A stretch of 5,624 nucleotides of DNA from positions 1-5,624 of the forward strand of contig JASHWO010000281.1 of the NCBI GenBank assembly GCA_030044045.1. Direction: 5' to 3'. This stretch comes from Acidimicrobiales bacterium. GTDB taxonomy: Bacteria; Actinomycetota; Acidimicrobiia; Acidimicrobiales; RAAP-2. The notes beneath the pieces were generated by a model that was not told the DNA's origin, did no database searches, and worked only from the letters and a program-made list of their open reading frames with translations. Position 1 is the first letter of the stretch. Each line of letters opens with the position of its first letter. A program made the position numbers and the translations under genes. Below, one piece after another: positions 2,068 through 5,624 of the stretch.

Positions 2068-3774
2068 TCAGGGCCCGGGGCTGAACGACCGGACGACCTG
2101 TCCTCCCCCGGGGCTGAACCCGTTCAGGCCGCCGCCTGTGCCCGGGCCTGTGCGTGTGCTCGAAGCGGGGAGCGGCGCCGACCGGTCGGCCAGCACGACG
2201 GTCATCCCCCTGGACAGGCCGCTGGTGATCTGGGTGTCGATGTCCCCGACGATGCCCACGGTCACCGGCCGGCGGTCCGCCTGCCCTGTCCGGAGGACGG
2301 TCACGTACGAATTCCCCGTCCCGGCGGTGTGCACCGCCGAGGTCGGGACGACCAGCGCGCCCTCGGCCCGTCGCAGCACCACCTCCGCCTGGGCGGCCGA
2401 TCCCGGGCGGATGCCGTGCGCCCCGGCCGGCAGGGCCACCACCACCGGGTAGGTGATGCTTGTCCCGCTCCCGCTGGTGTCGGGTGGCCCTACCCGGGCG
2501 ACCGTCCCCTCCAGGGGCGCTGTCGTGCTGTCGACGGTCACCTCGGCGGTGTCGCCCACCTTCAGCTCGGCCGCCTGGCTGCTCGAGACCGACGCCGTCA
2601 TCTCGAAGCTCCCGGCGCTGATGACGGTGATGGCGTCGGTCGCCGACCCTGCGCCCACCGACTGGCCGGCGGCCAGGTCGACCGAGACCACCGTGCCGGC
2701 GAGCGGGCTGGTGAGCTGGGCGGAGGCCAGGTCCTGCTGGGCCTCGATCAGCGCCGCCGTGGCCTTGTCGATGGACGCCTGGTCGCTGGCCAACTGGGCC
2801 GCGGTGGGGACGCCGTTCCCGGACGAGCCGTTCCCGCCGTCTGTGGCGCCGGGGCTCTTCGTGCCGGAGCCTGTGGCGCCCGACCCCGACGGCGAGCCGG
2901 ACCCCGACGCCGCCAGGATCTGGGCCAGGCTGCTCTCGGCCGTCGCTACCGCCTTCTGGTCGGTCGACACCTGTTCCTGGGCGGCCAACACCGCCTGCAA
3001 CGCGGCCCGGCATGTGGCCGTCGTTGTCGCCGCCGGCGGCGTGGTGTGGCTCTTGCCTGCTGTGCTGGAGCCCTTTGTGCTGGAGCCCGCTGTGGGGGCC
3101 CCGGAGCCGGGGGAGCCCTTGCCTGTCGTGGTGGAGTCTGTTGAGGTCCCGGAGCCTGTAGGGGACGTCGTCGTGGTGGTCCCCGACGACGGCGCCGACC
3201 CGCAGGCCGTCTGGGCCTGGGCCAGCGCCGTCGCCGCCTGCTGCGCCGCGGTGTCGGCCGCCTGCTGGGCGCTGACCACCGCCTGCTGGACCTTCTGCAG
3301 TGTGCCGTTCGGTGACGACGGCGACGAGCTGTTCGGTGCCGTGGTGGTGGTCGTGGTCGGTGCCGTGGTCGTCGTGGTCGCCGCCGCCGCCTCGGCTGCT
3401 TCGTCCTCGGCGAGCGTGGCCTTGGCGGCCTCGAGGTTCGTCTCCGCCGATGTCACCGCCTGCTGGAGTGTGGTGGTGTCCAACGACGCCAGCGTCTGCC
3501 CGGCGGTCACCGACTGGCCCACGGCGACGTCCACGGCGGCGACCGTCCCGGCCACCTGGAAGTCGGCTGTCGCCTGGTCGACCGGACTGGCCGTCCCCGT
3601 CAGTGTCAGGGTCTGCTCGACCGTGGCCGTGGTGGCGGTGGCCGTCCGGTAGCCGGTGGCCCCCGACGCCGCGGTGGCCCAGGCGGTGATCCCGCCGGCC
3701 GCGGCCGCCACCACCAGGGCGCCCACGCCGATGGCCCAGGCCCGGCGTCCCGGCCGGCGGCGGGGCTCAGCCAC
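2068..3774 (-). CDS. HlyD/MacA-like periplasmic-adaptor (membrane fusion) subunit of an ABC exporter
   Basis: The product is 568 residues from GTG 3774. Residues 11-36 form an N-terminal membrane anchor, and the rest is extracytoplasmic. The two halves of a biotinyl/lipoyl-like hairpin are AGTVAAVDVAVGQSVTAGQT (75-94) and SPLAGTVVSVDLAAGQSVGA (356-375). Between them lie Ala/Gln-rich coiled-coil helices (about 103-131, 160-190, 256-288, 325-353), separated by Ser/Thr/Gly/Pro linkers (132-159, 192-254, 289-324). A beta-barrel-like domain (about 390-470) and a membrane-proximal part (VVPTSAVHT, 476-484) follow, then a Gly-rich tail. The only two cysteines, Cys191 and Cys255, bracket the longest linker. 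GTG 3774 is preferred to the in-frame GTG at 3798 (576 residues) because it overlaps the stop of the upstream small ORF and has AGG 6-7 nt before it. The gene order makes it the partner of the MacB-like permease upstream. It is much longer than MacA because of the linkers. Confidence 0.85.
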   Translation of the reverse strand: MAEPRRRPGRRAWAIGVGALVVAAAAGGITAWATAASGATGYRTATATTATVEQTLTLTGTASPVDQATADFQVAGTVAAVDVAVGQSVTAGQTLASLDTTTLQQAVTSAETNLEAAKATLAEDEAAEAAAATTTTTAPTTTTTTAPNSSSPSSPNGTLQKVQQAVVSAQQAADTAAQQAATALAQAQTACGSAPSSGTTTTTSPTGSGTSTDSTTTGKGSPGSGAPTAGSSTKGSSTAGKSHTTPPAATTTATCRAALQAVLAAQEQVSTDQKAVATAESSLAQILAASGSGSPSGSGATGSGTKSPGATDGGNGSSGNGVPTAAQLASDQASIDKATAALIEAQQDLASAQLTSPLAGTVVSVDLAAGQSVGAGSATDAITVISAGSFEMTASVSSSQAAELKVGDTAEVTVDSTTAPLEGTVARVGPPDTSGSGTSITYPVVVALPAGAHGIRPGSAAQAEVVLRRAEGALVVPTSAVHTAGTGNSYVTVLRTGQADRRPVTVGIVGDIDTQITSGLSRGMTVVLADRSAPLPASSTRTGPGTGGGLNGFSPGGGQVVRSFSPGP

Positions 3775-3880
3775 CGGCCACCTGCCCGCCGCCGCCACCG
3801 GTCGGGCCGGCGACGGCCAGGGCCAGCAGCCCGTCGACGAGGGCCGCCGGCAACGCGTGCCTGGAGCTCGTTCGGTTCAT
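3767..3880 (-). CDS. Small ORF (37 residues) between permease and adaptor genes
   Basis: ATG at 3880 has a strong Shine-Dalgarno, GAGGAG, 8 nt upstream (3894-3889), better than any other start in this operon. The frame encodes 37 residues: a basic/polar start (MNRTSSRH), a short hydrophobic stretch (LPAALVDGLLALAVAG) and a Gly-rich end. It begins 24 nt after the permease stop, and its TGA (3769-3767) lies inside the first codons of the adaptor gene, giving an 8-nt overlap with GTG 3774. This arrangement suggests that ribosomes loaded here re-initiate at the adaptor start. The peptide may be a leader whose role is coupling rather than a functional protein. I recognise no family. Alternatively it could be a very small membrane-associated subunit, or the decayed start of a lost gene. 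Confidence 0.5.
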   Translation of the reverse strand: MNRTSSRHALPAALVDGLLALAVAGPTGGGGGQVAGG

Positions 3881-3904: not shown

Positions 3905-5131
3905 CTACTCGCTGCGGAGGGCGTCGATCGGGGCCAGGCGGGCCGCCCGGCTGGCCGGGTACACGCCGAAGACCAGGCCGATGGCGATGGCCACCACCAG
4001 CGCCCCGGCGGTGGCCGTGGCCGACACGGCGACGGGGTCGCCGATGGCCTTCGGCAGGAACGCCGCCCCCAGCAGGCCGATGAGCGCGCCCAGGGCGCCG
4101 CCGGAGAGCCCCAGGACCGACGCCTCCAGCAGGAACTGCCGGCGGATCAGGCCGGGGGTGGCGCCCAGGGCCTTGCGGAGCCCGATCTCCCGGATCCGCT
4201 CGGTCACCGACACCAGCATGATGTTCATCACCCCGATCCCCCCGACCAGGAGGGAGATGGCGGCGATCCCGCCGAGCAGGATGGTGAGCGTCCGGTCCAC
4301 CGAGGTGGCGGTGGAGTCCAGCGACTGTTGGGTGGTGATGGTGAAGTCGGCGTCCGACGATGTGGCGATCCCGTGCAGGGCCAGCAGCTCGGCGTCGACC
4401 TCCTGGTAGGCGGAGGACAGGGCGTCGCTCGACGCCGCCTGCACCAGGATCGAACTGAGCGAGGTCGAGCCGAAGATGCGCTCGGTGGCCGTGGTGATGG
4501 GCACGATCACCTGGTCGTCCTGGTCGGTCCCGGTCGATGTGGTCGACCCGACCGAGTTCAGCACCCCGACCACTGTCAGGGGGACGCCGTCCACGTCGAC
4601 CGTCTGGCCCACCGGGTCGGTCCCTTTGAAGAGCTCGGAGGCCGTTGTCGGCCCCAGCACCGCTACCGCCGCGTGGTCGGCCACGTCCTGGTCGTCGATG
4701 AACCGCCCCTGGGTCACCGTCCGGCCCCGCACGGACTCCCACGTCGGCGTGGTGCCCACCACTGTCGACGTCCAGGTGTTCGATCCGGCCACCAGGCTCT
4801 CGGGTGACTGGACCGTCGGCGCCACGGCGCGGACGTCGGGAGCCACCGTCTTCGAGGACAGGGCCGTGGCGTCGGCCGTCGTGAGGGTCGTGGCCGAGCC
4901 GAAGCCTTTCTGGATGCCCCCCGACGAGCTGCTGCCCGGGGTCACCGTCAGGAGGTTGGTGCCCAGGGCGTTGATCTCCGAGGTGACCTTGTCCTGGGCC
5001 CCCTGGCCGAGCCCGACGGTCAGGATCACCGCGGCGATCCCGATCATGATGCCCAGCACGGTCAGTGCCGAGCGGAGCCGGTGGGTGCGGACCGCCTCCA
5101 ACCCCGTCCGCAGGGTCTCCAGCCAGCTCAT
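3905..5131 (-). CDS. MacB/FtsX-family ABC transporter permease
   Basis: The product is 408 residues with the classic MacB permease layout. TM1 is at about 20-42 (RSALTVLGIMIGIAAVI). A large extracytoplasmic MacB_PCD-like domain follows (about 45-275), including GRTVTQGRFIDDQD (136-149), AVLGPTTASELF (157-168) and DPVGQTVDVDGVPLTVVGV (172-190). Three C-terminal TM helices lie at about 282-308, 334-360 and 372-392. GGIGVMNIMLVSVTERIREI (297-316), GLRKALGA (317-324) and the terminal YPASRAARLAPIDALRSE are hallmarks of the family. It forms a dimer in the cytoplasmic membrane, driven by a separate ATPase whose end lies upstream on the same strand. The substrate cannot be told from sequence; family members export macrolides, peptides, lipids or lipoproteins. 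ATG 5131 has SD AAGGGAG 7 nt upstream, inside the last unit of the 77-bp repeat array, and it overlaps the stop of the preceding mini-ORF (ATGA). Confidence 0.92.
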   Translation of the reverse strand: MSWLETLRTGLEAVRTHRLRSALTVLGIMIGIAAVILTVGLGQGAQDKVTSEINALGTNLLTVTPGSSSSGGIQKGFGSATTLTTADATALSSKTVAPDVRAVAPTVQSPESLVAGSNTWTSTVVGTTPTWESVRGRTVTQGRFIDDQDVADHAAVAVLGPTTASELFKGTDPVGQTVDVDGVPLTVVGVLNSVGSTTSTGTDQDDQVIVPITTATERIFGSTSLSSILVQAASSDALSSAYQEVDAELLALHGIATSSDADFTITTQQSLDSTATSVDRTLTILLGGIAAISLLVGGIGVMNIMLVSVTERIREIGLRKALGATPGLIRRQFLLEASVLGLSGGALGALIGLLGAAFLPKAIGDPVAVSATATAGALVVAIAIGLVFGVYPASRAARLAPIDALRSE

Positions 5132-5439
5132 TGGCGGGCTCCCTTCGGGAGCACTGCCGCTGAGCGGCGCCCTGTGCCGGCCGGTTCGCTCGTCTTCGGC
5201 TCGCTCACTGGCGGGCTCCCTTCGGGAGCACTGCCGCTGAGCGGCGCCCTGTGCCGGCCGGTTCGCTCGTCTTCGGCTCGCTCACTGGCGGGCTCCCTTC
5301 GGGAGCACTGCCGCTGAGCGGCGCCCTGTGCCGGCCGGTTCGCTCGTCTGCGGCTCGCTCACTGGCGGGCTCCCTTCGGGAGCACTGCCGCTGAGCGGCG
5401 CCCTGTGCCGGCCGGTTCGCTCGTCTGCGGCTCGCTCAC
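5132..5439. repeat. Four perfect-length 77-bp tandem repeats filling the ATPase-permease junction
   Basis: The units are 5132-5208, 5209-5285, 5286-5362 and 5363-5439, all exactly 77 bp. The only difference is one base: units 1 and 2 have T at offset 64 (5195 and 5272) and units 3 and 4 have G (5349 and 5426). Each contains two inverted repeats on the plus strand: GCTCCC-TTC-GGGAGC (first copy 5138-5152) and GCCGC-TGA-GCGGC (first copy 5156-5168). The array starts on the base before the permease ATG and ends on the first base of the GTGA that carries the ATPase stop, so it occupies the whole junction with no remainder. There are no spacers, so this is not CRISPR. Tandem duplication is certain from sequence; function is inference. 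Confidence 0.97.
5138..5152 (-). promoter_or_regulatory. Hairpin that sequesters the permease Shine-Dalgarno
   Basis: On the minus strand GCTCCC-GAA-GGGAGC forms a 6-bp stem with a 3-base loop. The right arm contains GGGAG, the Shine-Dalgarno of the permease ATG at 5131 (7-nt spacing). The left arm lies inside the last codons of mini-ORF 1, so a ribosome translating that mini-ORF would open the hairpin just before it terminates. The same element recurs every 77 bp upstream, before each mini-ORF start except the first. Confidence 0.5.
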
Positions 5440-5624
5440 TGGTCACTCACCGCCTCGGTGGGGACGACGAGGCCGTCCCGGATCCGCACCGTCCGCTCAG
5501 CCGCGGCCGCCACCTCGGGGTCGTGGGTGATCAGCACCAAGGTGCGTCCCGCCCGGTGGAGCTCGTCCATCAGGCCCAGCAGGTCGCCGGCCGAGGCCGA
5601 GTCCAGGTTCCCCGTCGGCTCGTC
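5436..5624 (-). CDS. ABC transporter ATP-binding protein, C-terminal part (MacB/LolD-like)
   Basis: The last 62 residues of an ATPase that continues beyond the right edge. The fragment opens on DEPTGNLDS: the end of Walker B with the catalytic Glu, then the D-loop. It continues with an LLGLMDELHRAGRTLVLITHD segment whose His is the H-loop switch residue, and ends RIRDGLVVPTEAVSDQ. The DEPTGNLDS-to-THD pattern is typical of MacB/LolD/FtsE-type export ATPases, and the downstream MacB-like permease confirms the context. It would hydrolyse ATP on the cytoplasmic face to drive the permease. Its TGA (5438-5436) is nested in GTGA, the start of the first repeat-encoded mini-ORF. Walker A and the signature motif lie outside the window, so completeness cannot be judged. 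Confidence 0.93.
   Translation of the reverse strand, partial: DEPTGNLDSASAGDLLGLMDELHRAGRTLVLITHDPEVAAAAERTVRIRDGLVVPTEAVSDQ

Follow-up and report, generated by a model that had tools for sequence, protein, structure and literature searches.

A dispersed MIRU-like repeat of Acidimicrobiia, seated at start codons, that probably relays ribosomes through coupled mini-ORFs

The window analysed here, a 5,624-nt stretch of DNA from an Acidimicrobiales bacterium, carries four tandem 77-bp units between the ATPase and permease genes of an ABC transporter, and we regard this array as probably the local amplification of one copy of a MIRU-like repeat, dispersed in Acidimicrobiia, that would relay ribosomes at start codons. 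At the level of sequence comparison, the anatomy of the element, its dispersal, its position at start codons, its conserved chain of stop-start overlaps, the covariation of its hairpins and the presence of empty junctions in other genomes are shown below.

Results

The array fills the junction between the two transporter genes (Table 1). Each mini-ORF spans 81 nt including its stop and encodes 26 codons, VSEP[Q/K]TSEPAGTGRRSAAVLPKGARQ; reading along the minus strand, the four starts lie at 5439, 5362, 5285 and 5208, and that of the permease at 5131. The ATPase ORF ends in AVSDQ, with its TGA at 5438-5436 inside a GTGA that also opens unit 1; the same four letters join the units to one another, and an ATGA joins the last unit to the permease, so that five overlaps lead from one transporter gene to the other. 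Tandem Repeats Finder delimits the repeat at 5126-5442, with a period of 77, 4.1 copies and 99% matches. The coordinates and overlaps that an earlier note had assigned to four 77-bp units with 26-codon ORFs are confirmed, as is the single polymorphism that it had seen: the units differ at one residue, which is Gln in the first two and Lys in the last two. The exact number of units in this 5.6-kb record is not certain. The arrangement is not a matter of chance, since the same layout was found at other loci of other genomes.

Table 1. Genes, mini-ORFs and hairpins of the window; hairpin coordinates were placed through the unit alignment A1
Feature	Position	Strand	Remarks
ABC transporter ATPase gene, 3′ end	5436..5624	-	62 codons in window; TGA overlaps unit 1
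Mini-ORF 1 (Gln variant)	5359..5439	-	GTGA at both ends; hairpins 5387-5399, 5369-5383
Mini-ORF 2 (Gln variant)	5282..5362	-	GTGA at both ends; hairpins 5310-5322, 5292-5306
Mini-ORF 3 (Lys variant)	5205..5285	-	GTGA at both ends; hairpins 5233-5245, 5215-5229
Mini-ORF 4 (Lys variant)	5128..5208	-	3′ ATGA shared with permease start; hairpins 5156-5168, 5138-5152
MacB/FtsX-type permease, 408 aa	3905..5131	-	Pfam PF12704 (MacB_PCD) and PF02687 (FtsX)
HlyD/MacA-type periplasmic adaptor, next gene on the same strand	2068..3798	-	Pfam PF13437 and PF16576

The 62-aa fragment of the ATPase has no Pfam match, and its assignment follows from the sequence DEPTGNLD, which we take to be an ABC motif, together with the homologous ATPase-permease junctions described below. 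Among relatives that carry an organism name, the permease is closest to those of Acidimicrobiales MAGs (about 80% identity). A long low-complexity stretch rich in Thr, Ser and Gly lies within the adaptor.

Units of this kind are dispersed. A search of 395 genomes in the class of an Acidimicrobiaceae locus (L008, genome G007) found matches in two genomes, and these led to many further copies. In the family of G235 the unit is matched in 8/10 genomes (E 1e-3) and in its order in 20/397 (E 1e-5; two candidates were scored per genome, and part of the matches span only the first 26-40 nt), and a single genome, G186, holds 28 matches. A profile run over 125 loci and the window defined 109 distinct units in 86 arrays, of which 72 are single, 10 are double and four have three to five units. 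Within an array the units are 97-100% identical (22 pairs), and same-length units of different arrays have a median identity of 71%, a contrast to be expected if a single insertion was then amplified locally. Identities of at least 95% between arrays are confined to two pairs, L098/L178 (identical) and L118/L150 (96%), and these few arrays are not independent. L098 and L178 are the same 92-bp element with similar flanks in two genomes, G410 and G409, and on this sequence likeness certain insertions may persist through speciation. Runs of N interrupt two related arrays, L092 and L152. Four loci of G186 (L207, L208, L213 and L215) represent a subtype beginning like GAGCGTAGCGAAGCGAAGCGACCC, which adjoins neither a classified gene start nor a classified gene stop; its lengths are 69, 75 and 76 bp, none of them 3n-1, the span of L215 being undefined, and it may represent a branch of the family without coupling.

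The element was found at the ATPase-permease junction of no genome other than that of the window, and the unit had no match in the three genomes of the family of G420, whose permease is the nearest among 148 (73% identity). Two weak short matches in 12 genomes of permease relatives (L081 and L082, both in G002) were taken as chance. Neither a plasmid collection nor viral contigs contained a match to the unit, and no natural copy-number variants at one junction were found among genomes that represent one per species.

Because the genomes are GC-rich, array flanks were classed by the GC3 of their reading frames, a gene being called where the frame with the highest GC3 stayed open for at least 60 codons. 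Contig ends cut three of the 86 arrays, and among the 83 that were classified the 3′ end coincides with a gene start codon in 72. Thirty run from a gene stop to a gene start, 42 adjoin a gene start only, seven a gene stop only and four neither. Where the array ends at a gene start, the four letters at the start codon are ATGA, GTGA or TTGA in 67/72 cases.

Empty sites define this position more closely. In G235 a single exact 77-bp unit (L083) separates atpG from atpD; it is missing from the seven related genomes in which this junction was readable, and five of them, including the two closest relatives, G407 and G408 (AtpD 96% and 94% identical), have a bare ATGA overlap, the junction in the other two not being a simple overlap. 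The element thus occupies precisely the stop-start overlap. As regards a target-site duplication of the kind that marks MITEs, both element ends carry RTGA and the empty site carries one ATGA, and the letters of element and target are indistinguishable. Homologous ATPase-permease junctions were compared at 41 loci, with permease identities down to 42% and reaching beyond the class; 35 are bare overlaps (16 ATGA, 12 GTGA, 6 TGATG and 1 TTGA) and six are not simple overlaps.

Conservation of the chain was assessed by simulating a ribosome for which reinitiation is allowed only where a start codon overlaps the stop just reached. Fourteen of the 83 classified arrays have no defined end; in the 69 that are defined at both ends the chain is unbroken in 63 (58 through RTGA, 3 through TGATG and 2 through TAATG), and among arrays between two genes it holds strictly in 29/30. 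It is broken in L084, L110, L158 and L218, and in L177 and L182 the mini-ORF runs in frame into the next start; the count is 65/69 if such in-frame runs are taken as intact.

A 77-bp period preserves a four-base overlap at every step, and the earlier note had asked whether relatives with other unit lengths keep the same 3n-1 rule. They do in 51/58 testable single units, with lengths from 71 to 98 bp. Seven single units of a length other than 74 or 77 bp break the rule; the chain is kept in four, broken in two and in frame in one. L087, L095, L159 and L169 each contain an ATGA or GTGA at which the mini-ORF is divided into two, and the relay is preserved despite the length. Lengths other than 74 and 77 bp are the better test, since they are less dominated by common ancestry: pooled over genomes they are 3n-1 in 11/18 cases (p 0.014), or in 9/16 without repeats of one subtype (p 0.05), and the strict chain holds in 15/18, which include four that depend on a stop-start overlap inside the unit. 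Elements that depart from the modal length of their own genome are 3n-1 in 6/11 cases (p 0.12). Much of the regularity could be inherited from a few master copies. Simulated single-base deletions leave the strict chain intact at 24/73 positions in one 77-bp type and at 0/70, 1/70 and 0/73 in three other units, and simulated two-base insertions at 99/292 in that same type and at 5, 8 and 3 of 280 to 292 in the others, which indicates that the rescue is partly built into that one sequence.

One of 27 distinct 77-bp units has an internal stop, whereas random substitution from a consensus, with relatedness ignored, would give 7.05. Selection on the encoded peptide was sought and is not visible: substitutions in 77-bp units fall on the three codon positions as 54/67/56 and 36/45/37, with no clear third-position excess, and those in 74-bp units as 79/90/110 over codons 2-12, a weak tilt toward position 3, and as 93/76/74 over codons 13-24. 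Our reading of these substitution patterns is that the reading frame has probably been maintained and the peptide has not.

The units also share two hairpins. In an alignment of 54 units of 74 or 77 bp, 91.8% of the cells in the two hairpins are paired (86.3% and 98.1%), and 37 changes affect both sides of a pair, compared with a mean of 6.3 in shuffled alignments (0/500 shuffles reach 37) and with 9-19 when the pairing is slid. The second hairpin of the window differs from the common form by two pairs changed on both sides. Its loop and 3′ arm read GAAGGNGG or similar and harbour a motif resembling a Shine-Dalgarno (SD) sequence, represented in mini-ORF 1 by AAGGGAG at 5370-5376. Defined as at least 5/7 letters of AAGGAGG no more than 20 nt before the next start, the SD-like motif is present in 69/71 distinct units, against a mean of 24% and a maximum of 39% in shuffles, and its spacing to the next start is 7 nt in 45 of those 69. 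The folding energies of three single units are not significantly stable (z -0.87, -1.17 and -1.84). The opening bases of unit 1, TGAGCG (5433-5438), could pair with the complementary CGCTCA of its first hairpin (5392-5397), and likewise in the other units; this alternative fold would hide the mini-ORF start. Of the three units folded, that of the window shows it, that of L083 shows it in the centroid structure, and the third does not.

Elements of the leader type, with no upstream gene overlap, number 32 once L178 is dropped as a copy of L098. In 11/32 a TANNNT box resembling a -10 element ends 6-9 nt before the mini-ORF start (distances of 5-9 nt were counted), compared with 0/30 between-gene elements, 0/7 gene-end-only elements and 0.5-0.7% at control offsets; the pattern was spotted by eye and then counted on the same data, and the count is to be read as post hoc. 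Before the start at the 3′ end of the element no such box was found (0/32, 0/30 and 0/5). SD sequences upstream of the 5′ start are mildly enriched in both element classes, at 9/33 and 10/30 against 11-12% of control positions. TANNNT at such a distance is the usual -10 position of leaderless actinobacterial transcripts that begin at the start codon, and its presence before 11/32 leader-type starts suggests that elements landed on the start codons of leaderless genes. The same sequence pattern suggests that at these loci the mini-ORF may now begin the mRNA.

Discussion

We propose that the repeat would insert at start codons, for the most part RTGA, where its mini-ORF would inherit the initiation signal of the host gene, whether an overlapping upstream stop or the start of a leaderless mRNA, and would feed that gene through the stop-start overlap at the 3′ end of the element. 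A ribosome travelling along the mini-ORF would open the second hairpin and reinitiate at the overlapping start, helped by a putative resident SD. This SD-like AAGGNGG occupies the loop and 3′ arm of the hairpin, and its commonest distance to the following start is 7 nt. At the window locus four units would then amount to four mini-cistrons between the ATPase and the permease. From sequence comparison we infer that the repeat spread by moving, that its mini-ORF is translated, that ribosomes reinitiate and that leaderless genes were taken over. A stronger formulation, in which a mobile family of non-MIRU origin is translation-transparent, in that it targets starts, seizes the initiation signal, feeds the gene again from an SD buried in a hairpin and stacks freely, seems to us about evenly balanced between true and false. 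If it is true, any number of copies of such a repeat can stack in an operon and leave the operon unbroken.

The closest known counterparts are the MIRUs, mycobacterial interspersed repetitive units, reportedly described by Supply et al. in 1997. The earlier note knew of no described system built in this way; that claim does not hold, since the mycobacterial MIRUs are so built according to the passages cited here (PMC4473831, PMC12548453, PMC4213456). According to a 2025 review, which also covers translational coupling at stop-start overlaps, MIRUs seem to be mobile, with insertion at start codons and coupling of their ORF to the gene at a -4 nt spacing (PMC12548453); a review on M. avium paratuberculosis gives small ORFs overlapping contiguous ORFs and the lack of dyad symmetry as hallmarks (PMC4473831); and an account of the senX3-regX3 gap in two strains describes three 77-bp MIRUs, or two of 77 bp and one of 53 bp (PMC4213456). 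Both families thus consist of short dispersed repeats, in part tandem, placed at start codons, with a small ORF that runs the same way as the operon and overlaps the adjoining ORFs at its two ends, as in the five overlaps of the window and in 29/30 between-gene arrays, and the MIRU lengths in that account, 77 and 53 bp, are both 3n-1. They differ in host group, Acidimicrobiia for the present family; in dyad symmetry, absent from MIRUs in the cited section and represented here by two covarying hairpins; and in frame, several of 20 MIRU loci looking fused in frame as against 2/69 in the Acidimicrobiia family. Some of those 20 loci have overlapping starts and stops, and others are in-frame fusions by appearance or unclear.

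Sequence homology to MIRUs was considered and rejected. Starting from a MIRU core, which was found in 19/397 Mycobacteriales genomes (a reversed-pattern control gave 0 in every genome listed), neither HMM matched the loci of the other family at E 1e-3 (0 matches, with positives of 24 and 155), and the local score between MIRU and the Acidimicrobiia unit is no better than that of shuffles (76/200 means and 99/200 maxima at least as high). The lack of detectable homology and the dyad symmetry lead us to call the Acidimicrobiia family MIRU-like but not MIRU. By eye, a 20-bp stretch of L161, a 92-bp subtype, resembles MIRU. Among the papers listed in literature searches, mostly from outside subscription journals, none reports Acidimicrobiia repeats of such build.

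Two further systems invite comparison. Coupling at ATGA or GTGA overlaps and the leader cistrons of bicistronic designs combine a stop-start overlap with an SD inside the upstream cistron, as the present units do, but here the coupling cistron is a repeated, dispersed and serially stackable element. The fpg1 repeats of M. tuberculosis (ETR-F/VNTR3239) likewise lie in tandem between operon genes and end at a start codon; in the cited parts of the study they are 37-bp units accompanied by other small repeats, are absent in species outside the M. tuberculosis complex, and have a length that correlates with mRNA level, the effect having been measured on mRNA (PMC2734929). The mechanism behind that effect need not be the one at work in the present array.

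Short dispersed repeats with conserved hairpins are also the mark of REP/BIME elements, and there is a small chance that the unit is a palindromic repeat of the REP kind that affects how stable the mRNA is or how it folds, its ORF being incidental. Dispersed palindromic repeats are common, the two hairpins covary, and the peptide is without clear selection, all as that explanation would have it; yet the units overlap start codons, with the 3′ end on one in 72/83 arrays, and they carry a conserved ORF chain, intact in 63/69, and Y1_Tnp/RAYT was found in 0/11 genomes. As a mobiliser of the present family RAYT is likewise unsupported by this search for Y1 transposase (PF01797), for which the control responded in 5/14 and in which the genomes may be incomplete. 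For an autonomous parent element of the MITE kind, too, the search covered PF01797, with the same outcome. It is distinctly improbable that the units serve instead as transcriptional elements, providing an internal promoter for the permease. The senX3-regX3 MIRUs are said, in the cited passage, to drive senX3-independent expression of regX3 (PMC4213456), but a scan of 5050-5550 found no sigma-70-like promoter or terminator, with the proviso that actinobacterial promoters can escape such scans, and the TANNNT boxes precede the element and not its 3′ start.

The idea that copy number is an adaptive dial for the ATPase:permease stoichiometry draws on the tandem array of four near-identical units and on the longer repeats that, in the cited part of the study, accompany higher fpg1 mRNA in M. 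tuberculosis strains (PMC2734929). We rate it as unlikely because single copies are the rule (72/86 arrays). Moreover, 42/83 arrays sit at a gene start without an overlapping upstream gene, 35/41 homologous junctions make do with bare overlaps, and an identity of 97-100% within arrays (22 pairs) is what simple slippage or recombination would be expected to leave. That the array or its copy number is an artefact of assembly we consider very improbable: serial 77-bp repeats are difficult for short reads and N runs lie within L092 and L152, but the units are not all alike (Q, Q, K, K and the closing ATGA), and elements of the family, single or tandem, recur at many loci, so that at most the count is uncertain. 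We retain the locally amplified, start-codon-seated repeat as the preferred explanation of the array.

Understood as such a repeat, it belongs to a second MIRU-like family, without detectable sequence likeness to the first and with hairpins and a resident SD-like motif of its own, MIRUs being known as mycobacterial. This suggests that repeats may more generally persist in gene-dense genomes by occupying a start codon with a coupled mini-ORF ahead of it. Stacking creates a natural dose series, and stacks of up to five units, together with apparently converted leaderless genes, provide natural material for measuring termination-reinitiation. The family also supplies tiny ORFs, which annotation is likely to overlook.

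A further small reading frame lies on the minus strand of the window between the permease and the adaptor, a 37-codon ORF, MNRTSSRHALPAALVDGLLALAVAGPTGGGGGQVAGG, at 3767-3880, whose end overlaps the start region of the adaptor ORF; it is possibly another short coupled cistron beside the operon of the array.
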